From a virus: 64,000 nt of DNA. The stretch covers positions 28,328 through 92,327 of the IMG/VR virus record IMGVR_UViG_3300042402_003740; one strand, given 5' to 3'. Numbering within the stretch: the first letter of the stretch is position 1; each line of letters opens with the position of its first letter. The notes under the pieces were generated by a model that was given only the letters and a program-made list of their open reading frames with translations, made no database searches and had not been told where the DNA came from. Positions 3,001-56,593 of this stretch are shown here, one piece after another. A program made the position numbers and the translations under genes.

Positions 3001-6000
3001 TAAAAGATTCAAGATTTGCAGGACTGACAAACTACACAACAGGTCTGTCAATGGGTGGTGCTATAGAGAAAGTCTATAATCAAATTAGACCATTTATGTC
3101 TACACTTGTTAATGGGTATGGTTATTCTAATCCTGGTAATGAAGATAATGGTTTGACTGCTAGTCAGATAATGACATATTTTATCGTGGAAGGACCAACA
3201 GGAATTTCAGCAGCAACTGGTCCAGCATCAGTTGATGCTTATTATAATCCTGCGCTTCAAAACTGGCAAGCAGCAACAAGAGACAGAGGTCGTGAAATAG
3301 GAAATCCTTGGAGGCCACCATATACAAACAGCACATATCCTTTGGCTGCTGGTAAATCTGTCTCAATAAAACTTGCCTGGTTTGCATGGCAAAGAGCACT
3401 AGAATCTTTAGTACACGAAGACCACACACAGAGAAAGTGGGTTGACACTCTTCGTGGTAGTACAAGTAAAGAGATGAGAAATGTGGAATTTGCAGAATAT
3501 GATGCATTCCCTCTATCAGTTGGGGAAGGTGTATTCATTAGAGATCCGTATACGCATCCATTCTTGGCTTTAGGTGAGCAAGAGAACAGCGAGTACATTA
3601 ACCCAAGTCCAGAACAGTATGGATCTATTTTAGCAGACAGTATAAAGACGGCGGTTTACTATACAAATCCAACAACAGATGAACAAAAGTATATTATTAC
3701 TATTTGTGATGCAGGGCAAAATCCACCAGCAGGAACTGTAAGATTCGCCCCATCTTTTGATATTACAGCAGCCAGAAGTTGGATTTCATTGCTCATGGAA
3801 GTACAGTTGATGAGAGGAATTCTTCGTACTGATCCTAGTGCGTGGTTGAACTATACTCCTTGGGTAAATACTCCTTGGGATAATCCTGATTACAATGGAT
3901 TCTATCATACAATAGATCCTGTGAACACACCAGACATAGAAAGACGAACCTATTCGATTCAGTACTTTAGAGAATTGGTTTTCCATGCTCTACTCCACGG
4001 AGCAAAGTGGTTCCATCTTTTCAATGACATTCCCGGTAATGGTGGACTTGGCCTCTCTGCAAGATATCAAAACTTCTTGCAGGGAGTAACACTCATGCAG
4101 GGTATTTTCAATGAATGGAATTCTCTTACAAACTATAACCGTGTTCGTCCAGCATCGAATCCAACAGGAAACTACAATGCTCTTGTTGAAAGGGTGAATC
4201 TTTCAGACGCAGGAGCAAATCACGAAGGAGCAACAGGAACACTTATAAGCGGTGCTCGTGTTCTGTCCGCAGATTCTTTCGGACTGACAAGTAGTGTGCC
4301 ATTCGGAGCAAATCCAAATGAAACCTACATCTGGAGAATATCTGTTCCTCCACAAGGAGTCGGTTGTACATATGATCGTGTTGATATTCCAGGATTTGGA
4401 TCAGCAACACAGGATCTTCCTCTAACTGTTTATGTGCCAGCAAATGAAACAGGATTCTGGATCAAGAGAACAGGAAATCCATATAAACCCCAATACCGTT
4501 GGAGAAAACCAACAACCGATGGAATGGGCACAGTACTGAAGAACAGGGACTCTAGTGCCATAGGTTTCCCCTCAACAAATCCTAACAGTGTGTTTACTGG
4601 TGGTGATAGTGATGCAACAATTGGAAGCGGTGCTAACTCTGATATTCGTGTCATTGCTGCATGGAAGAGCGATCCAATACCCTTTGATAAGAGTACAGAA
4701 ACAACAGTAACTATATGTGCCTACCATCCATCGGGTATACAGCGTGTAGAGGCTTCTCTTAATGGAGGATTAACCGCATCAATTGTAGGAAACTCTCCTA
4801 TAAATGATCGGTATCAGGAATTCACATTTGGTATTCCCCAAAATCTTCCGCAAACAACAGGGTTCCCAACAGGAACTCTCCATGAGATCCGTGCAAAGAT
4901 ATTCCCTGTTGAAGGAAAGCCCCGTATACTTGGAGGTCAACCGACAGACGCTTCGGTCTACTATACAGCGGCAACATCTCTTATGAGAGTCGCTCCAACA
5001 AAAGAACAGGCAAATGAAACTTCATATTTCTTGTGCAATGAAAATCCACATGAAGTATCAGTTCTTAATAATTCTTGGGTAGTGAATATGGGAACTTCTC
5101 AGTATAGTGATTTGAGAAATGCAATACTTTTTGAATTAGGAAATCGCACAGGTTCCGATGTGTTAACAGAAGGTTCTGGAGGCAATAATTCCAATGGAAA
5201 CTGGACTCCTTTCAACAGAAAGTTTGTAAAGATAAAAGTAAAAAATCAAACGAACTCAAATTTAAATATCCTTGGAGATCCTGGAACAGTTTCTGTTGGT
5301 GGATTTCTCTTTGTTGTGGATAGAAACGGTGCTCCAACTGGTTTATTTGATCCAACATGGAATCTGCTTGCATCTTCATTTGATTTCTCGGGTAAGGCTC
5401 TAGTAATAGAGAGGGACTCTGGATCATCAACAACTCCAACAATGAAGGCGAGCACAACAGGAAACACAAATCCTCCTCCTCGTCCAGCAGGATTTTCCAC
5501 AGCAGTTCCTGGTGCAAATCAACCGTTTAGCAATCCCAATTCTGTATATGCCATACCTCTAGGATTGTTTAATCCTGGAAGTTTCGATGCATATTGCACA
5601 TTTCAAAATAGAATATACAGATTAAATAAGAGCCTTGCGGATAGGAGTGGTTCATTTGAATTTGGTGGAGCAGGATTCACTCCTAATGAATTGTCTGCTC
5701 CAAGCGGGACAGACACAAGTAATTCCACATGGATATTTGAATCAGGTACAGGAGATTACGAAACAGCAGTTGGAACATCCAGAAGTGTTAATTGTCTAGG
5801 AGTAGGAAGAATTAAGTTCAAGAATGTTATAGTAGACCGTGGATCAGTATTGGAATTCTCTGGAAATAACAGGCTTCAATTCGATGGTGTAACTTTTACC
5901 TCATCACTACAGCCTCCAACAGAATCCAGAGTTATTGCAACAACACATATGGCTTCATTCACAGGATGTAACATTGATGCTGATAATCCCACACGACATG

Positions 6001-7842: not shown

Positions 7843-7843
7843 A

Positions 7844-7914
7844 TTCCCTTGCTTGGATTCGAACCAAGAAAAAGAGATCCAAAGTCTCTCGTGTTACCGT
7901 TACACTACAAGGGA
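7844..7914 (-). tRNA. tRNA-Gln (anticodon TTG)
   Basis: Acceptor arms TCCCTTG/CAAGGGA, T arm CTTGG-TTCGAAT-CCAAG, and anticodon loop CTTTGGA on an AGAGA/TCTCT stem, with discriminator A. First of a four-tRNA plus tmRNA cluster with gaps of only 1-5 bases, so it is probably processed from one transcript together with the gp32 operon upstream. Confidence 0.93.
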
Positions 7915-7915
7915 A

Positions 7916-8005
7916 AGGAAGAAGTGGGATTCGAACCCACGGTAGACATCGAATGCCTACGCCGGTTTTCAAGACCAGTGCCTTTAACCACTCAGCCATT
8001 CTTCC
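7916..8005 (-). tRNA. tRNA-Ser (anticodon TGA)
   Basis: Acceptor GGAAGAA/TTCTTCC, anticodon stem CTGGT/ACCGG with loop CTTGAAA, a long variable arm as expected for Ser, and T arm GTGGG-TTCGAAT-CCCAC. CCA is not encoded. Confidence 0.95.
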
Positions 8006-8010
8006 ATCAG

Positions 8011-8083
8011 TGGACTGAGGGGGACTTGAACCCCCAACCTCTGCCTTGCAAAGGCAGCGTTCCCCCAGTTGAACTATCAGCCC
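8011..8083 (-). tRNA. tRNA-Ala (anticodon TGC)
   Basis: Acceptor GGGCTGA/TCAGTCC (one G-T pair), anticodon stem CTGCC/GGCAG with loop TTTGCAA, and a T arm with GGGGG/CCCCC around TTCAAGT. Confidence 0.94.
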
Positions 8084-8087
8084 AGAA

Positions 8088-8169
8088 TCCGAGAGGCGGG
8101 ACTCGAACCCGCAAGCCGAAAGGCAGCAGATTTTAAGTCTGCCGTGTATGCCAATTCCACCACTCTCAG
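8088..8169 (-). tRNA. tRNA-Leu (anticodon TAA)
   Basis: Acceptor CTGAGAG/CTCTCGG (one T-G pair), the D arm TGGTGGAATTGG typical of Leu, anticodon stem GCAGA/TCTGC with loop CTTAAAA, a long variable arm, and T arm GCGGG-TTCGAGT-CCCGC. Confidence 0.94.
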
Positions 8170-8172
8170 TCA

Positions 8173-8500
8173 TGGAGTCGGGGGGATTTGCACCCCCGTC
8201 CAGAACCACATCAAAGACAAACTTCTACGGAACCTAGTCCGTGTTCTGTACAGCATCGGGACACGGACATCCCTTTGCAGTTTGCGAATCGTTTAGTTCA
8301 ACAGCCTTACGATTCCTATGGCAGTCTATCCGATGGTTTGGGAGGGGTAGATATCGGAGTCTCTACCCCTCCCTTGCCGCTTCAAGCAGCGAGACGAACT
8401 GTGTTAGCAGTTATTGTGTGGTCGATTTTATACAGAGCCGTTCGACCAACTCTGGTGCGCCGTTTGTCTCCTACTTAGCCTGTCGAATCTACTCGACCCC
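8173..8500 (-). ncRNA. ssrA: tmRNA (transfer-messenger RNA)
   Basis: The 5' end reads GGGGTCGAGTAGATTCGACA, the hallmark start of one-piece tmRNA. The 3' end has a T arm GGGGG-TGCAAAT-CCCCC and the acceptor strand CGACTCC, which pairs with the 5' GGGGTCG; discriminator A. Length is 328 nt. A tag frame ends in Leu-Ala-Ala-stop at 8382-8384. If GAC at 8421-8423, following the usual A-rich stretch, is the resume codon, the tag is DHTITANTVRLAA. The canonical LAA end would send tagged proteins to ClpXP-type proteases. The 5' end abuts the stop codon of gp32 and four tRNAs follow. The resume codon is inferred; the RNA itself is clear. Confidence 0.93.
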
Positions 8501-9421
8501 TTACTCATCATTTCGGGCAAGACGCTCAAAGTATGACATGGCATCTCCCGAAAACTCGTCTTCTTCATTCTCACGCTTGATTTCCTTTGCCGAACGGGAC
8601 TTTGGAGAGGAACCAAACTGCTCCGCTGCCTGTTCAACCTCATCGTCAAGGTCTTCTGCCCGCTTTGGAGCAGACACAGATCCACCAATGACCGAATCAA
8701 ACTTACGCTTGAGTTCATCATATCCCTTGAACTCCTTTGGATTGGTGAAATCCTTCAGCGAATACTGACTCTTCCACAGAGCCTCCAACTTCGCATCGTC
8801 GCCACCAAAGAGAGCCGCAGGATTGGCAAACTCCGACTTGTCGTAGTTGATGTAGCCATCCACCTTGCGAACCTTCAGTTTAAAATCCGCTCCCTTCCAA
8901 AAGTCGAAGGGATTCACAGCCTCTTCATCTTGGAACTGTGGGTGCATCTTCTCTTCAATCTTCTCAAAGATCTTCTTCCCATACTTGTATAGGAATACCT
9001 TGCCCTCGTTCTGTGGTGCAGAGGGATCGGAAATGACAAGAATATTGGAGACATACGCCAACTTGCGCTTGCGGTCACGGGCAATAGACTTGTCCGACTC
9101 CACTCCGCTGTTCCACAACTCGTTGTTTGCCTCGCAGACTGGACACTTCTGACCAATCGTGGTTGGACAATTCTCAATGAACCATCCACCCTTGCCTTGG
9201 AATCCGTGCGAGAACTGGCGCACCCACGGCAGATCCTCTCCATCGCTTGGAGGGAGGAAACGGATTACTGCATAGCCGTTGCTGGACTTGTCAAGGGTGG
9301 GCTTCCAAATGCGGTTGTCCTCATAGGACGATTCCCCGCCACCCTTCTTCAATTTCTCTGCCTCATTGAGCAGACGCTTCATGCTGTCGTTTGAATTCTT
9401 CTTTAGATCTTTAAAACTCAT
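8501..9421 (-). CDS. 32: Single-stranded DNA-binding protein, T4 gp32-like
   Basis: Coats single-stranded DNA in replication, recombination and repair. T4 gp32 landmarks are in order: a basic N-terminal LKK cooperativity region; WKP...NGYAVIRFLP; a zinc-binding set (H in FSHGF, then ENCP, KCPVC); NILVISDPSAPQNEGKVFLYKYGKKIFEKI; FKLKVRKVDGYINYDKS; and a very acidic tail for protein partners. About 306 residues, the T4 size. ATG 9421 is preferred over an upstream GTG at 9427 because AGGAG lies 8 bases before the ATG but only one base before the GTG. Transcribed after gp33 and gp59, with its own TTGACT-N16-TATACT promoter inside the end of gp59. Confidence 0.95.
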   Translation of the reverse strand: MSFKDLKKNSNDSMKRLLNEAEKLKKGGGESSYEDNRIWKPTLDKSSNGYAVIRFLPPSDGEDLPWVRQFSHGFQGKGGWFIENCPTTIGQKCPVCEANNELWNSGVESDKSIARDRKRKLAYVSNILVISDPSAPQNEGKVFLYKYGKKIFEKIEEKMHPQFQDEEAVNPFDFWKGADFKLKVRKVDGYINYDKSEFANPAALFGGDDAKLEALWKSQYSLKDFTNPKEFKGYDELKRKFDSVIGGSVSAPKRAEDLDDEVEQAAEQFGSSPKSRSAKEIKRENEEDEFSGDAMSYFERLARNDE

Positions 9422-9437
9422 ATTCACGCTCCTTTGT

Positions 9438-9472: not shown

Positions 9473-9500
9473 AGTATATAGCGTCGAAACGGAAAGTCAA
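9473..9500 (-). promoter_or_regulatory. Sigma-70-type promoter for gp32
   Basis: TTGACT, 16 bases, TATACT on the minus strand, about 50 bases upstream of the gp32 start and inside the last codons of gp59. The same box pair recurs throughout the window. Confidence 0.75.
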
Positions 9501-10380: not shown

Positions 10381-10408
10381 AGTATACCCTGTTCATGGTT
10401 AAAGTCAA
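10381..10408 (-). promoter_or_regulatory. Sigma-70-type promoter for gp33-59-32
   Basis: TTGACT, 16 bases, TATACT on the minus strand, with the -10 box 28 bases before the gp33 start. Divergent from the fibre gene on the other strand. Confidence 0.8.
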
Positions 10409-10467: not shown

Positions 10468-10475
10468 GATAAATG
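10468..10475 (+). promoter_or_regulatory. Late promoter-like box (GATAAATG)
   Basis: GATAAATG ends directly before GGGAG, the ribosome site of the long fibre gene. It is a one-base variant of the GATAAATA box before the 117-aa gene at 7.49 kb. The close spacing to the ribosome site is as in several T4 late genes. Confidence 0.5.
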
Positions 10476-10484
10476 GGAGCAATT

Positions 10485-13400
10485 ATGTCATCATCTTCAG
10501 GACAGGGATTCACAGGCAGTATAGTAAACGGTTTACCCAATTATGTTCTTGCAGACCGCTCTACCATAGGTATGGGCGATGGCGTGACAGGAGCAATACA
10601 GTATGTGAAAATTCTTTGGGGAGGCAGCGGAGAAGCCAATCTTGTAAGCGATAGCGCATCTGATCCTAGTGCATTGCCTGTCAGTCTCAATACTCCTGAA
10701 AATTATTTCTTAACCGATGCTCTGATTAACGGTATGACCTATACCAATGGTGTGACTGCATTTGCGGTAAAAATACTTGATGCAGCGGGATTGTGTCTAG
10801 GAAGTGTAAGTATAAGCCTTGGAGCAGGGTTTACTCTTGAGGCTGTTCGGAGCGGTCTTACTCTTGGGGTGACATTTGGAGCAATCACTGCTCCTGCTGC
10901 TGGTATTGCAATAAAGAACGCTGTTGTTGGTGGAGCGACACAAGCACTAGGAATCACAGGTTCTGTTTATGTTTTGGGTGGAACTGTTGCTGTAAGTGGA
11001 TTAGACCTTAGTTCTTTGAGTTTTAGTAGTGGGTTAACTATTGCTGGTATATCAGCAGGGGTGACTCTACCTGTTCTCTTTTCTGGAGGAACTCTTGACG
11101 GTATATCAAATACAGTAGGAACTAGAATTAAAGGTATTGATGGGGGGGTTACATTTGCCGCTGTTCTGTACTCACCTGGTGGTACATTCTTGGGAAGTGG
11201 TCTATGTGGATCACTGCTTGTATCTGGTGTGACAGGGGCAATCCCTGTCGGTGTGACTTTTGGAACCTTGACAAGTTTAACAGGTTCTATTAATATTCTA
11301 AACACTCCCACCGTAAAGATAGACTCTACTGATAATACGGTAAAGATAGCCTCTACTGATAATACGGTAAAGATAGCCTCTAGTGATAATACGGTAAAGA
11401 TAGCCTCTACTGATAATACGGTAAAGATAGCCTCTAGTGATAATACGGTAAAGATAGCCTCTACTGATAATACGGTAAAAATCCAACCAACTTTGACCAG
11501 CACAGGCACAGCAGGACAGGCTGGTGGAGGAACAACATTTAACTCTGTATTGACAAATTTCAATGGTGTTCCGATTGGCTATGATGTGTCTGGTGGAGTT
11601 GCAACATTCCGTGGATTCCCTGTGCATGGAGTATCTGGTGCAACTGCCATCCCTGTCCAAATAGTTGGCGGCTTGAGTGGTATTACTATTACGGGATTGG
11701 CATTCCCATCGTCATTTGCTGTGTCAGGTGGAACCTTAGCCGTATCTGGTGGAACACTAGGCTTTGTTCAGATTGGCTCTATCTCTGGTGGAACAGTAAA
11801 CATTGGAAATACTGTAACTGTCGCAGGAAGCGTGTCATTTAGCAATACTTCTCTTGATGTCAATGTGAGTAACACTGATGACGCAAATGCAATTGCAGTA
11901 GCACCTGTTTCTGGCTGGAAAGACTCTTCGAATACATCTCTCAAAAGCCATCTAGATGGTCTTACCGTTGCTGTAAGCGGTTTGAACTTTAGTGGCGGTC
12001 TTTCAATTGTTGGAGCAACGGCCATTCCTGTAGGAATTACAGTTGGATCAGGTGCAAGTGCATATGCCTTGGGAGGACTAGGAGTAACATTTGCCTCTAT
12101 AACCATCTCTGGTACTCCACAAGTCTCTTTGAGTGCGGCTTCATCAATTGAGGTTGAAGGTTCCAGTAATTCTAGATTTACGGCTCCTGTTGGGGTTACG
12201 CTTAATGCTTTGCCGTTAGGTATTACAGCGGTCGGAATTTCTGGAGCAACAAGCAGTACTGTTCTTGGAGTTGGATTATACGGAAGAGGTATAAGTGGCT
12301 TTGTTCCTATTGGAGCGTCTGGTAATGCGCTAAATGTAACAGTTGTTGGCGGCTTAAGTGGAATCACTATTACCGGTTTTGCATTCCCATCATCATTTGC
12401 TGTGTCAGGTGGAACCCTAGCCGTATCTGGTGGAACACTAGGCTTTGTTCAGATTGGCTCTATCTCTGGTGGAACAGTAAACATTGGAAATACGGTAAAT
12501 GTGGGCGGAAGCGTAACTGCTTCTATTAGCAATACCCGTGTTCCAGTATTCCTTGCCGATTCAAGCGGCACGGCGATCAGCAGTATAGATGCAGTTCCTG
12601 TGTTTGGATATGCAGGGGCGACTGCCTTGAGAGTTGTACTATCAGACCAACTTGGAACTCCTCTTGCTTTTGGAGCAAGTGGTGCTTCAGGAACAATCAT
12701 TGGTGTTCCTGTTGTGGGAATCTCTGGAGCAACAGCAGTAGGCGTAACAATAGGGGGACCAATCGGTCTACGGGGAATATCTTTTGGAATGACATCAGGT
12801 GTAACCTCTATTGGTGTCCTCTTTACAAATAACTTTGGGGTTCCTCTTGGCCTATCGGGAGCAACTGTTGTTGGTATGCCTGTGTTTGGAATCTCTGGAG
12901 CAACTGCAATTGATGTGCGAATTGTTGCAGGAACATTCGGAGTAACTCTTAATGCAACTATCAACACTTCAGTAACTTTTGGTGCAACTCTTGGTGTTCG
13001 TATCACAGAGGGTTTCTCAACTGGCGCAACATCAGGTGTAACAGGGATTGGTGTACTCTTCGTGAACAACTTTGGGGTTCCTCTTGGCCTATCGGGAGCA
13101 ACTGTTGTTGGGCTTCCAGTGTTTGGAGTCTCTGGAGCAACAGCAATAGGAGTAACTTTTAGCGGTGTAAGCATCAGACCAGTGCTTGGAAGTAGTGGTA
13201 TTGGAGGTTTGAGTGGTGGAGGAACTACATTCAATACAGTGCTTACAACTGTTGCAGGAGTTCCTATCGGTTATGAGTTAACAGGTGGAGCCGCAATATT
13301 CCGTGGATTACCTGTACACGGAGTATCTGGTGCAACAGCAATTCCTGTTGAAGTTACTGGTGCAGGACTGAAATTCTTTGACGGTATAACTTATAACAAT

Positions 13401-15068
13401 GATGGTGAGGCTTTTATTGGAATATGGAACACAGTAAAGATCACAGGCGATTCTTCATTAAGAATAGGTGTGACTTTTGAAGGAACTGTAAGACTAGAAG
13501 CACAGTTCTCAACAGGAGGCCAAGCCTTCGTGAGAGTCGGAACTACAGACGGTGTCTTTGTAGGAGTTACAGGTACTGTTGCACTACAGACATTAGCAAA
13601 TGGCATCACAAGAGGTGCAACAGGAGTAGCAGTACTCTTCGCAAACAACTTTGGTGTTCCTCTTGGCCTATCGGGAGCAACTGTTGTTGGGCTTCCAGTG
13701 TTTGGAGTCTCTGGAGCAACAGCGATAGGAGTGACCTTTGGTGCTATTACCTTTGGTGCTGCTGGAATGGGCGTGACCTTTGGAGGTATAACATTCAGCA
13801 CAACAAGAACCGTTATCGTTGGGACATCGTTTGCTGGAGGCGGTGGCAATCTAGGACTACCTGTATTTGGAGTCGCTGGTGCGACGGCTGTCCAGGTCAG
13901 TGTTGTTGGAGGAACAGTTAGTGGAATCTTTACAACAGAACCAGGTGGAATAACAGTAACAGCCGTACCAACAGGTATTCCTGTCTTTGGTGTATCTGGT
14001 GCAACAGCAATGGGTGTCACCTTTGCAGGAAGAGTAACGGTTACAGGTGGTGTATATCTCCTTGGAACCGCAGGAATAACATTTGGAGGAATCACAGGTT
14101 CTGTAAGTATTGTTGGCACTCCTAGTGTTAGTATACCCAGTGCTGTAAGTGTACAAAACACCAGCGGTGGTTCCCTAAAGGTAGAACCTTCATCGGCATA
14201 CAGTTCCAATAAAATTGTTTCGGGAAGCACAGCAGACACAGGCTTTATTGTTGTACAAAAGCCTGGAGTAAAGTTTGCCCGTGGTCTGACCCTGAGTACA
14301 GATTTTATCAATGTAACTGTTGTTGGCGGTATAACCGCAGTGTCGATCAATACCTCTCCTGTTTGTGTAACAAAGAACTACACTGGAGAGATAGATGGTG
14401 TAATCAACGGAGAGATCTCTGTTCCTCTAAAGCACGGCTTGTATGTACAGATGACAAAGTGGGATCTTCTTTCCCATGTCTATGTTGGATACACAGCAGC
14501 ATCTCTTTCAGAATTTGATAGACACGCACAGGTTCTGTACCGAGAGTACCAGGTTGCGCCAATCTGGGGAAATGCTATGGAGCAGTTCCGTCAGTTTGCA
14601 GGAAATAGTGGAAACTCTTCTGCATTTGCTAACAACACTATGGCAGATGGGTCAGATCTGTCGGCTAATGTCGAGACACACCCTGTCCAGAAGCAGTTTG
14701 TTGGTGTAATTGAAAAGCCCACACGCATCTTTATACCGTGCCGAAACGCAGGAGAAGTGTACATCAAGGTCGTGGGAGACTACACCAATCACACAATCGG
14801 ATCAGGCTTCTGGAATTTCGAAGGAGGAACGGCAGAATGGTCTGCACACACACTCTATGAGCGTGGCTTCTATGCATCAGATATGAGTGCAATCAATGCT
14901 TTCATAGGAGGAGATACCGATGGAGGAAATCCTGCTTTGAATACAGACGGTAGTCTTGTAGAAGGTCTTCCTGGAATAGTAGTTGCTCAACCTGGTTCAG
15001 GTATAGCAATACAGAAGATACTAGATTCGTATCAGAACAATCCGTTCATACGAATTTGGGGACACTAA
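10485..15068 (+). CDS. Long repetitive virion fibre protein, about 1,528 aa
   Basis: A Gly/Val/Thr/Ser-dominated protein of short beta-strand repeats, very likely a fibre or a fibrous head/tail appendage. Repeated modules are visible: GVPVVGISGATAVGVT-type units many times, NNFGVPLGLSGATVVG three times, a near-identical module around GGTLAVSGGTLGFVQIGSIS twice, and six copies of a nonapeptide TDNTVKIAS. The last 230 residues are non-repetitive and aromatic (LYVQMTKWDLLSHVYVGY, GFYASDMSAINAFIGG, ending RIWGH) and probably form the folded tip or attachment domain. ATG 10485 with GGGAG 5 bases upstream is preferred to ATG 10473, which lacks a ribosome site. Collagen-like or beta-solenoid fold is inference. 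Confidence 0.8.
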   Translation: MSSSSGQGFTGSIVNGLPNYVLADRSTIGMGDGVTGAIQYVKILWGGSGEANLVSDSASDPSALPVSLNTPENYFLTDALINGMTYTNGVTAFAVKILDAAGLCLGSVSISLGAGFTLEAVRSGLTLGVTFGAITAPAAGIAIKNAVVGGATQALGITGSVYVLGGTVAVSGLDLSSLSFSSGLTIAGISAGVTLPVLFSGGTLDGISNTVGTRIKGIDGGVTFAAVLYSPGGTFLGSGLCGSLLVSGVTGAIPVGVTFGTLTSLTGSINILNTPTVKIDSTDNTVKIASTDNTVKIASSDNTVKIASTDNTVKIASSDNTVKIASTDNTVKIQPTLTSTGTAGQAGGGTTFNSVLTNFNGVPIGYDVSGGVATFRGFPVHGVSGATAIPVQIVGGLSGITITGLAFPSSFAVSGGTLAVSGGTLGFVQIGSISGGTVNIGNTVTVAGSVSFSNTSLDVNVSNTDDANAIAVAPVSGWKDSSNTSLKSHLDGLTVAVSGLNFSGGLSIVGATAIPVGITVGSGASAYALGGLGVTFASITISGTPQVSLSAASSIEVEGSSNSRFTAPVGVTLNALPLGITAVGISGATSSTVLGVGLYGRGISGFVPIGASGNALNVTVVGGLSGITITGFAFPSSFAVSGGTLAVSGGTLGFVQIGSISGGTVNIGNTVNVGGSVTASISNTRVPVFLADSSGTAISSIDAVPVFGYAGATALRVVLSDQLGTPLAFGASGASGTIIGVPVVGISGATAVGVTIGGPIGLRGISFGMTSGVTSIGVLFTNNFGVPLGLSGATVVGMPVFGISGATAIDVRIVAGTFGVTLNATINTSVTFGATLGVRITEGFSTGATSGVTGIGVLFVNNFGVPLGLSGATVVGLPVFGVSGATAIGVTFSGVSIRPVLGSSGIGGLSGGGTTFNTVLTTVAGVPIGYELTGGAAIFRGLPVHGVSGATAIPVEVTGAGLKFFDGITYNNDGEAFIGIWNTVKITGDSSLRIGVTFEGTVRLEAQFSTGGQAFVRVGTTDGVFVGVTGTVALQTLANGITRGATGVAVLFANNFGVPLGLSGATVVGLPVFGVSGATAIGVTFGAITFGAAGMGVTFGGITFSTTRTVIVGTSFAGGGGNLGLPVFGVAGATAVQVSVVGGTVSGIFTTEPGGITVTAVPTGIPVFGVSGATAMGVTFAGRVTVTGGVYLLGTAGITFGGITGSVSIVGTPSVSIPSAVSVQNTSGGSLKVEPSSAYSSNKIVSGSTADTGFIVVQKPGVKFARGLTLSTDFINVTVVGGITAVSINTSPVCVTKNYTGEIDGVINGEISVPLKHGLYVQMTKWDLLSHVYVGYTAASLSEFDRHAQVLYREYQVAPIWGNAMEQFRQFAGNSGNSSAFANNTMADGSDLSANVETHPVQKQFVGVIEKPTRIFIPCRNAGEVYIKVVGDYTNHTIGSGFWNFEGGTAEWSAHTLYERGFYASDMSAINAFIGGDTDGGNPALNTDGSLVEGLPGIVVAQPGSGIAIQKILDSYQNNPFIRIWGH
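11314..11475 (+). repeat. Six tandem 27-bp units inside the fibre gene
   Basis: The unit TAAAGATAGCCTCTACTGAT plus AATACGG occurs six times head to tail, nearly identical; only one Thr/Ser codon (act/agt) and the first unit's codon vary. Each unit encodes nine residues (VKIASTDNT), the size of one turn of some beta-solenoids. The high identity points to recent slippage or recombination and likely length variation between isolates. Confidence 0.9.
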
Positions 15069-26425: not shown

Positions 26426-26815
26426 TTATCCTCCGTAGGCTACGCCCCGCACAAAGAAGTGGTCTTCGTGACTGGTGAATCCAAAGCACTCCCGTGCATA
26501 CTCTATGACAACTGCTGGATCAAACTTCTTGCAGGAGTACAGGTCGAGGGTAATGAAATGGGTGGGTTCAATCGAATGGATCTGTATGCCACTCTCTATG
26601 AGGGGAACCCATCCGCTCACTCCTGCCTTCTCGGGATACACTTCAACACCGTTTTGTGTTGGTGCATGGATAACCACAGGCTGACTCATGCGTGTCATGC
26701 CGATTCGGTCCACCAGACGCTCAAGAAAGCGATAGGTCAACTCCATGTCATCGGCTGTGCCGGGCTTGCACCCGTACATATCAAGGTAATATGAATACCC
26801 GAAAGGTTTTTTCAT
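26426..26815 (-). CDS. speD: S-adenosylmethionine decarboxylase-like protein
   Basis: 129 residues, the size of bacterial SpeD. YYLDMYGC, the segment KAGVSGWVPLIESGIQIHSI and FITLDLYSCKKFDP correspond to the SpeD fold. Glu74-Ser75 is the self-cleavage site where Ser becomes the pyruvoyl cofactor; His80 and Cys95 match the processing and donor residues. It would supply decarboxylated AdoMet for spermidine, a polyamine that can neutralise packaged DNA. Start overlaps the preceding stop (ATGA), so it is part of the cargo operon. Confidence 0.85.
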   Translation of the reverse strand: MKKPFGYSYYLDMYGCKPGTADDMELTYRFLERLVDRIGMTRMSQPVVIHAPTQNGVEVYPEKAGVSGWVPLIESGIQIHSIEPTHFITLDLYSCKKFDPAVVIEYARECFGFTSHEDHFFVRGVAYGG

Positions 26816-38441: not shown

Positions 38442-38470
38442 TTGACAGAGAGCCGTTCATAGAGTATACT
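38442..38470 (+). promoter_or_regulatory. Sigma-70-type promoter for the 51-aa basic protein
   Basis: TTGACA, 17 bases, TATACT: a consensus-quality promoter 88 bases before the start. The remainder of the 209-base gap 38,349-38,557 holds nothing else notable. Confidence 0.82.
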
Positions 38471-48590: not shown

Positions 48591-48791
48591 ATGGAACAGA
48601 AACCAGGAACAAAAACCACTGAGTTTTGGATAGCACTTGCTCCAGTTTTGATTGGGGTTATTGAAGGACAGCGGGGTGATCCTGAGAATAATCGTTATCT
48701 TATTGTTTGTGGTACAGCACTGGGGTGTATGTATATACTAAGCAGAACATTTCTAAAAATTAAAACAACAAAAACAACAGGAGATCAATAA
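48591..48791 (+). CDS. Small membrane (holin-like) protein, 66 aa
   Basis: ATG 48591 has GAGGAG 6 bases upstream. Two membrane helices: FWIALAPVLIGVIEG and YLIVCGTALGCMYILSRTFL, with a Lys-rich end. Topology suits a class II holin. Directly coupled to the dockerin-like gene. Confidence 0.65.
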   Translation: MEQKPGTKTTEFWIALAPVLIGVIEGQRGDPENNRYLIVCGTALGCMYILSRTFLKIKTTKTTGDQ

Positions 48792-49552
48792 TGAAAATAC
48801 TTACCGCTATAATGCTTGCACTAGGAATTGCCACATCTATTGAAGCACAAACAGATCCAAACGCAAAAATTGATTTGACGATGATTGCACCAACGAGTGT
48901 AGTCGGTGTAAATGAAGAGATCGAAGTGCAGATCGTCGCTTCAGCACAGACCACACCCCAACGATATCTTGTTGCAGATATTGTATTTGGTTGGAATCCA
49001 ACAGAACTTCAGTTCATCGGACTATCTCACGAAGGTTCACATCCACTCCTTTGGGTTCCTCCTAGCGGTATGCCATGTCCCGCTGGCTATCAGAATTGTG
49101 AAGGAATTGGTGGCGACTACACAGGAATCAACGAATCCATTCCACCAGCAGACGGAAATGCCTTGTACTATGGATATGGAAAGTTGGGGAGTGTGTGGAT
49201 TATTGATGAACCGGTGCAGATCGTAAAACTAAGATTCAAGGTTATTTCATCATTCTCACAAAGTGATGTTTATTTCATACCTGAGATTACTGTAGATGCA
49301 CAACAGAAAACTATAGTTTATGGTAGTTACATACCTGGTCTTCCCACAACGGGCATCCTGACGAATGCAACAGTTATAGGAAATATGAGAGTGGGAGATA
49401 TCGACGGGAACGGTGTTGTCAACTCCTCAGACTTGGCGCAGTTGATCGCTGCTTGGGGTCAATCTTCTTTTAATCAAAATCCATGTGATTTGAATAGAAA
49501 TGGAATAGTTGATTCTGCTGATCTAGGAATTTTGCTGGATAATTGGGGATAA
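48791..49552 (+). CDS. Secreted protein with cohesin-like body and dockerin-like repeats
   Basis: 253 residues. Signal peptide MKILTAIMLALGIATSIEAQ. Residues 28-190 form a beta-sandwich (VNEEIEVQIVASAQ, YLVADIVFGWNPTELQFIGL, PVQIVKLRFKVISS) like cohesin-type domains. The end carries two calcium-loop repeats, GDIDGNGVVNSSDLAQLIAA WG and DLNRNGIVDSADLGILLDNW G, as in dockerins, very common in Planctomycetota secreted proteins. Suggests acquisition from, or display on, such a host. Stop overlaps no neighbour; terminator follows. Confidence 0.85.
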   Translation: MKILTAIMLALGIATSIEAQTDPNAKIDLTMIAPTSVVGVNEEIEVQIVASAQTTPQRYLVADIVFGWNPTELQFIGLSHEGSHPLLWVPPSGMPCPAGYQNCEGIGGDYTGINESIPPADGNALYYGYGKLGSVWIIDEPVQIVKLRFKVISSFSQSDVYFIPEITVDAQQKTIVYGSYIPGLPTTGILTNATVIGNMRVGDIDGNGVVNSSDLAQLIAAWGQSSFNQNPCDLNRNGIVDSADLGILLDNWG

Positions 49553-51411: not shown

Positions 51412-51501
51412 GGACAGATGGCAGAGTGGTCTAATGCTGCGGTTTACTAAACCGCCGATGGTTCTAGAAACCATCCGAGGGTTCGAATCCTTCTCTGTCC
51501 G
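51412..51501 (+). tRNA. tRNA-Ser (anticodon ACT)
   Basis: Acceptor GGACAGA/TCTGTCC, anticodon stem GCGGT/ACCGC with loop TTACTAA, long variable arm, discriminator G as for Ser. An A34 anticodon (ACT) is rare in bacteria, where GCT is usual. Confidence 0.88.
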
Positions 51502-56428: not shown

Positions 56429-56503
56429 GCGCCGTGGGAGGTCTTGGTCATCTCAGTTCGACTTATAATCGAATAAGACTTGGTTCGAATCCAAGACGGC
56501 GTA
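56429..56503 (+). tRNA. tRNA-Ile (anticodon TAT)
   Basis: Acceptor GCGCCGT/ACGGCGT, stem TTCGA/TCGAA with loop CTTATAA, T arm CTTGG-TTCGAAT-CCAAG. Reads AUA directly without lysidine. Confidence 0.93.
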
Positions 56504-56593
56504 CTGAAGAAAGAGGAAAAAATGCGAAGTGATTACAGTATTAGATTTGGTCGAGTGAAGGTTTTACCCTATTACCCCTTTAAAGGAGGACAA

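Follow-up and report, generated by a model that had tools for sequence, protein, structure and literature searches.

An intact one-piece tmRNA gene directly behind gp32 in a T4-like phage with a probable planctomycete host

Introduction

tmRNA genes are rare in phages, as the earlier note on this DNA had held, being present in 2.3% of 18,146 phage genomes (PMC9004378). They are also carried by huge phages (PMC7162821) and are known from mycobacteriophages Bxz1, Cali, Catera and Wildcat and from Bacillus phage G (PMC4131195). The tmRNA described here shares with those of the last-named phages its place on a phage genome, but the phages and their hosts are unrelated. The ssrA genes of Melnitz-like phages and pelagimyophages are a further parallel: these too are T4-like aquatic phages, and the same role has been suggested for their tmRNAs, that of keeping host translation running (PMC9004378). 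However, their ssrA is a circularly permuted two-piece gene of the alpha type whose neighbour is a transcription coactivator bearing a glutamine riboswitch (PMC9004378), whereas the tmRNA studied here is in one piece and follows gp32.

Among bacterial RNAs, the planctomycete tmRNAs of RF00023 resemble it in architecture, in the four pseudoknots, in G3-U70, in the context of the resume codon and, in some cases, in a G at position 55 of the T-loop. Their tags, such as ANTQYALAA, ADTQYRMAA and AEAPVRMAA, are comparable to that of the phage. In contrast, the phage tmRNA is ~60-67% identical to them in sequence, has a shorter tag (8 codons) and lies in a phage replication operon. Phage tmRNAs are already known; the useful new part is the link to a host. 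Through it, T4-like phages of an uncultured group can probably be assigned to Planctomycetota, on whose phages a phrase search found no paper.

Results

A complete tmRNA between gp32 and four tRNA genes

The window, the whole 64-kb stretch of DNA analysed here, is part of a 92,327-base virus record and contains the T4-type genes gp32 (PHROG 224), gp59 loader (PF08993) and T4_baseplate (PF12322). On its minus strand, the gene order is gp59 loader, gp32, tmRNA and four tRNAs. The gp32-like ssDNA-binding protein (8501-9427, minus strand; PHROG 224, E 1e-115) probably starts at the ATG at 9421, which lies behind AAAGGAG and is conserved in relatives. Its UAA stop occupies 8503-8501 and the tmRNA begins on the next base, a spacing of 0 nt. 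ARAGORN and the Rfam covariance model were concordant on a one-piece tmRNA (ssrA) of 328 nt on the minus strand (8500-8173), with its 5' end at 8500 and its discriminator A at 8173. The match to RF00023 was full-length (model positions 1-374) and scored 97.7 bits (E 6.9e-37), compared with a gathering cut-off of 47 bits. CCA is absent from the gene and TGA comes after the discriminator A. The tRNAs that follow, all on the minus strand and called by ARAGORN, are tRNA-Leu (UAA; 8088-8169), tRNA-Ala (UGC; 8010-8083), tRNA-Ser (UGA; 7916-8005) and tRNA-Gln (UUG; 7843-7915). Collectively, these results bear out the earlier reading of a complete tmRNA with tRNA-like ends at 8173-8500 that abuts the gp32 stop and precedes four tRNAs (8169-7843), and the covariance-model search proposed there as a check returned a full-length match. 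A DNA search with the window tmRNA against 50,697 phage records gave no match, and the Rfam hits in the window included no riboswitch. A terminator-like match at 7940-7924 was discarded as the T-arm of tRNA-Ser.

Relatives were collected by a gp32 search of IMG/VR together with a tmRNA pattern scan. Seven contigs carry a tmRNA after gp32, and their gp32 proteins are 83-100% identical to that of the window. Their tags are ANPVRLAA (L003), ANTQYRMAA (L004), ANTVRLAA (L085, L086), ANTQYRLAA (L087, L089) and AKTQYRLAA (L088). No base separates the gp32 stop from the tmRNA in any relative except L004, where the gap is 2 nt, and wherever the sequence of a relative reaches far enough, the same four tRNAs stand beside the tmRNA. 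ARAGORN placed one tmRNA boundary of L004 wrongly, at 3704; Rfam and the alignment give 3842. No tmRNA was found in the stretch covered of 13 further loci (L005-L017) with gp32 59-64% identical, and the tmRNA gene therefore marks the window clade. Permuted tmRNAs were present in more distant gp32 relatives (L024, L064 and L068), and the nearest cultured phages by gp32 are cyanophages (55% identity). The gp32 protein and tmRNA of L086 are identical to those of the window, though the surrounding 6.1 kb is only 93% identical, which reflects either locally strong conservation or recent recombination. In L004, genes for a GDP-mannose 4,6-dehydratase and a DUF5856 protein are inserted between the cassette tRNA-Leu and tRNA-Ala (4250-5730), and L087 has a DUF5856-like ORF between the same two tRNAs.

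A promoter-like TTGACT-16-TATACT lies upstream of gp32 (9473-9500, minus strand). Since each of the five distinct sequences has a sigma70-like site (TTGAC[AT]; TATACT or CATAAT) ahead of gp32, the tmRNA is most likely part of the gp32 transcript, and the proposal that it would be made from the replication operon is supported to that extent. Sites of the form TTGAC[AT]-N15-18-TATA[CA]T recur at 38442, 42477, 45475, 50003, 52219, 54055 and 56382 on the plus strand and at 10408 and 9500 on the minus strand; these are likely phage early promoters read by host sigma70.

Compensatory changes in the tmRNA structure

The structure, comprising the acceptor stem, a long helix, four pseudoknots and the T-arm, was drawn by hand on the window sequence and its pairs were counted over an alignment of the five distinct tmRNAs, which are 73-89% identical. 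All four pseudoknots, whose presence the earlier note had wished to see checked, could be placed on the minus strand. Pseudoknot 1 (8420-8454; CAGAG/CTCTG and GGTCGA/TCGACC) is nearly invariant and therefore gains no separate support from covariation. Compensatory changes were seen in 4 pairs of pseudoknot 2 (8329-8373; GGGAGGGGTA/TACCCCTCCC and TCCGAT/ATCGGA), in 8 of the 11 pairs of pseudoknot 3 (8286-8325) and in 2 pairs of pseudoknot 4 (8237-8273), stem 1 of which is the weakest helix (80% of cells paired).

Across the five sequences, pairing was kept in 96.5% of 375 pair cells, and both sides had changed in 22 of 75 pairs, some of them in pseudoknots 2-4. Shuffling gave a mean of 9.3 double-changed pairs (sd 2.2), with none of 500 shuffles reaching 22. 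Drawing the structure on the window sequence is somewhat favourable to it and the five sequences are related, but controls with slid partners, at only 0-5 double-changed pairs, were still far lower. The tRNA-like domain is complete in all five, with a 7-bp acceptor, discriminator A and T-arm. In the acceptor, 5-68 and 6-67 show coordinated changes, whereas G3-U70, the signal for alanine, and A73 are invariant. U55 of the T-loop is a G in three of the five, window clade included. The compensatory changes in 22 of 75 pairs argue that the tmRNA is under selection, a maintained gene and no debris.

The tag resumes at GCU

In the canonical register, translation resumes at GCU (8408-8406) and the tag reading frame (8382-8408, minus strand; GCT AAC ACA GTT CGT CTC GCT GCT TGA) encodes ANTVRLAA followed by a UGA stop, in agreement with the earlier prediction of a frame ending in LAA. 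UAACU lies directly 5' of the GCU and supplies the conserved A, which stands four bases ahead of this codon and does not vary among the relatives. In E. coli, A86, at the -4 position, is the main determinant of the tmRNA frame (PMC2481249). The frame upstream of GCU is open, and a GAC (8423-8421) sits 15 bases further up. The earlier note had let this GAC open the tag, giving the Asp-first DHTITANTVRLAA. This tag is unsupported because GAC is paired within the 3' strand of a pseudoknot 1 stem (8425-8420); the conserved A and its spacing favour GCU, and GAC was rejected as the resume codon. A completed tag would comprise the Ala with which the tmRNA is charged, followed by ANTVRLAA. Tag length differs by one codon between clades, with frame, stop and Ala-Ala end kept.

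Tag and tmRNA sequence point to Planctomycetota

We scanned ~85,000 GTDB species genomes for ANTQYxxAA, a pattern made from the relatives' tag by leaving one codon unconstrained and allowing only NTN at the codon after it. The scan returned 117 stretches, all in tmRNA sequence context. By title, ~93 were Planctomycetota, 15 were bacteria of unspecified kind and the remaining 9 belonged elsewhere. Three of these nine (L127, L150 and L166) come from genomes placed together with a Phycisphaerae genome in one phylum. The codon before the LAA-type end encoded A or S in all 117.

A full-length one-piece tmRNA was the rule among 119 genomes drawn from the planctomycete phylum, a name assigned from the title of the centre genome and from the similarity of the drawn tmRNAs to those of titled Planctomycetota. 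Arg before L/MAA was found in 13 of 90 tmRNA tags of this draw (ADTQYRMAA, ADAPVRMAA, AEAPVRMAA and DTHSVRLAA among them) compared to 0 of 26 in the control, one true phylum that is Chloroflexota-like by its tags. Three supposed control phyla, defined by loci labelled Vicinamibacteraceae, Limnohabitans and Bacteroidia, were discarded: the genomes drawn were the same as for the Planctomycetota centre, and it was the titles that were off, not the tags. With a profile of the phage tmRNAs, the highest score was 46 bits among planctomycetes and 23 bits among genomes of the control phylum. By ARAGORN coordinates, G55 occurs in the T-loop of 11 of 145 bacterial tmRNAs of the planctomycete-rich set. 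Comparison with the tags of candidate hosts, suggested earlier as a route to host prediction, was fruitful, with both ANTQYxxAA and R-[LM]AA tags pointing to Planctomycetota. Nucleotide identity to any planctomycete tmRNA is low (~60-67% over longer alignments); the acquisition would therefore be old, and the present host could differ.

A dockerin-tailed protein of Phycisphaerales type

A secreted-looking 253-aa protein (48791-49552, plus strand) has a signal-peptide-like start and a Phycisphaerales-type C-terminal dockerin type I repeat that ends ADLGILLDNWG. Among 59 genomes of the planctomycete phylum, the tail matched the Phycisphaerae centre genome only, in 45 places, and none of 61 genomes of the control phylum was matched. 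Matches were also present in 22 of the 117 titled tmRNA loci, for example DLNGDGIVDGADLGILLGNWG in L128. The protein found no match in 50,697 phage records and is perhaps a host-derived surface or sorting protein. The tail, which is independent of the tmRNA, supports a Phycisphaerae-like host. Together, the tag, the tmRNA similarity, the T-loop and the dockerin tail indirectly support a host among the Planctomycetota that is Phycisphaerae-like; the cyanophage affinity of gp32 counts against this.

Discussion

We consider it likely that the window encodes an intact and functional one-piece tmRNA, and that the T4-like phage carrying it probably has a host among the Planctomycetota, most likely one of the Phycisphaerae. 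We infer the following course of action. The tmRNA would be co-transcribed with gp32 and the four tRNAs, freed by host RNase P and 3' processing, given its CCA by the host and charged by host AlaRS through G3-U70. Host SmpB is presumed, since the 92-kb record and the 7 relative records, all of them fragments, yielded no SmpB gene. With SmpB, the tmRNA would enter ribosomes stalled on broken mRNAs, Ala and ANTVRLAA would be added and release would follow at UGA. The LAA end of ssrA tags is used by ClpXP, and the -LAA end here would direct the tagged product to a ClpXP-like protease. The gain for the phage would be more free ribosomes while the phage itself or the defences of the host cleave mRNA. 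Since the tag keeps its LAA end and resembles the tags of candidate hosts, the best reading is ordinary trans-translation, most likely as a supplement to the ribosome rescue of a host from the Planctomycetota. The earlier note had offered two roles. Rescue of stalled ribosomes stands as the likeliest job of this full, functional-looking tmRNA, whereas re-routing of host proteins to proteolysis is not needed as a special role, since the tag, with an R-L/M-A-A end like that of some planctomycete tags, looks host-compatible.

The tmRNA and the tRNA cassette could also form a counter-defence kit against RNase toxins or anticodon nucleases, in which the tRNAs replace cut ones and the tmRNA clears jammed ribosomes. 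Such a kit would suit the company of the same four tRNAs in every sufficiently long relative, and codon supply alone fails to explain tRNA-Leu (UAA) because UUA makes up just 8% of Leu codons. However, no toxin or nuclease target was identified, and plain codon compensation fits tRNA-Ala, since GCA makes up 46% of Ala codons and the phage has 47% GC compared with 62% in candidate host loci. We regard this reading as rather unlikely. Far less probable still is that the gene is a functionless piece of host ssrA, acquired when an excision was imprecise or through recombination. Integration often takes place at tmRNA genes, and ssrA fragments occur in prophages (PMC9004378), but the present gene is complete and in the same place in all diverged relatives found, 22 of its pairs are compensated, and its tag frame, stop and A-A end have survived the loss of a codon in frame.

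An inhibitor or decoy of host tmRNA has reportedly been proposed for the tRNA-like-domain-only RNA of mycobacteriophage DS6A, and a related idea is a tag with altered protease routing. Relative to the ANTQY tag found most often in hosts, the phage tags do have Arg in place of Ala before LAA. Nevertheless, the mRNA-like part is intact, as is every pseudoknot, and Arg before LAA is no phage invention because it is present in bacterial planctomycete tags; with 13 of 90 such tags carrying it, phage-specific re-routing of proteolysis was dropped as its explanation. We give these proposals very little credence. It is equally a long shot that tmRNA excision, by cutting the gp32 mRNA 0-2 nt behind its stop, would after slight 3' trimming yield non-stop gp32 messages that the tmRNA itself clears, with mutual regulation of tmRNA output and gp32 synthesis.

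Under the preferred reading, ordinary trans-translation, a phage ribosome-rescue RNA is kept under selection in a replication operon, and its benefit is thus open to testing. The tag and sequence of a phage tmRNA would also be usable as a host signpost.

Elsewhere in the window, a SpoU-family RNA methyltransferase gene (PF00588; 57563-58222, plus strand) ends 5 nt before tRNA-Leu (CAA) in a second tRNA region, and its product could modify phage or host tRNA. ARAGORN also called tRNA-Ile (anticodon UAU; 56429-56504) and tRNA-Ser (ACU; 51412-51501) on the plus strand, which are unusual for bacteria. An S-adenosylmethionine lyase-like/DUF3293 protein (58275-58916, plus strand) and an AdoMet decarboxylase-like protein (26426-26815, minus strand) place two AdoMet-consuming proteins in one phage, possibly for anti-restriction. 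A 1531-aa ORF (10473-15068, plus strand), in which no Pfam family was matched, contains several internal DNA repeats of 65-170 bases with 76-94% identity and is probably a tail fibre.
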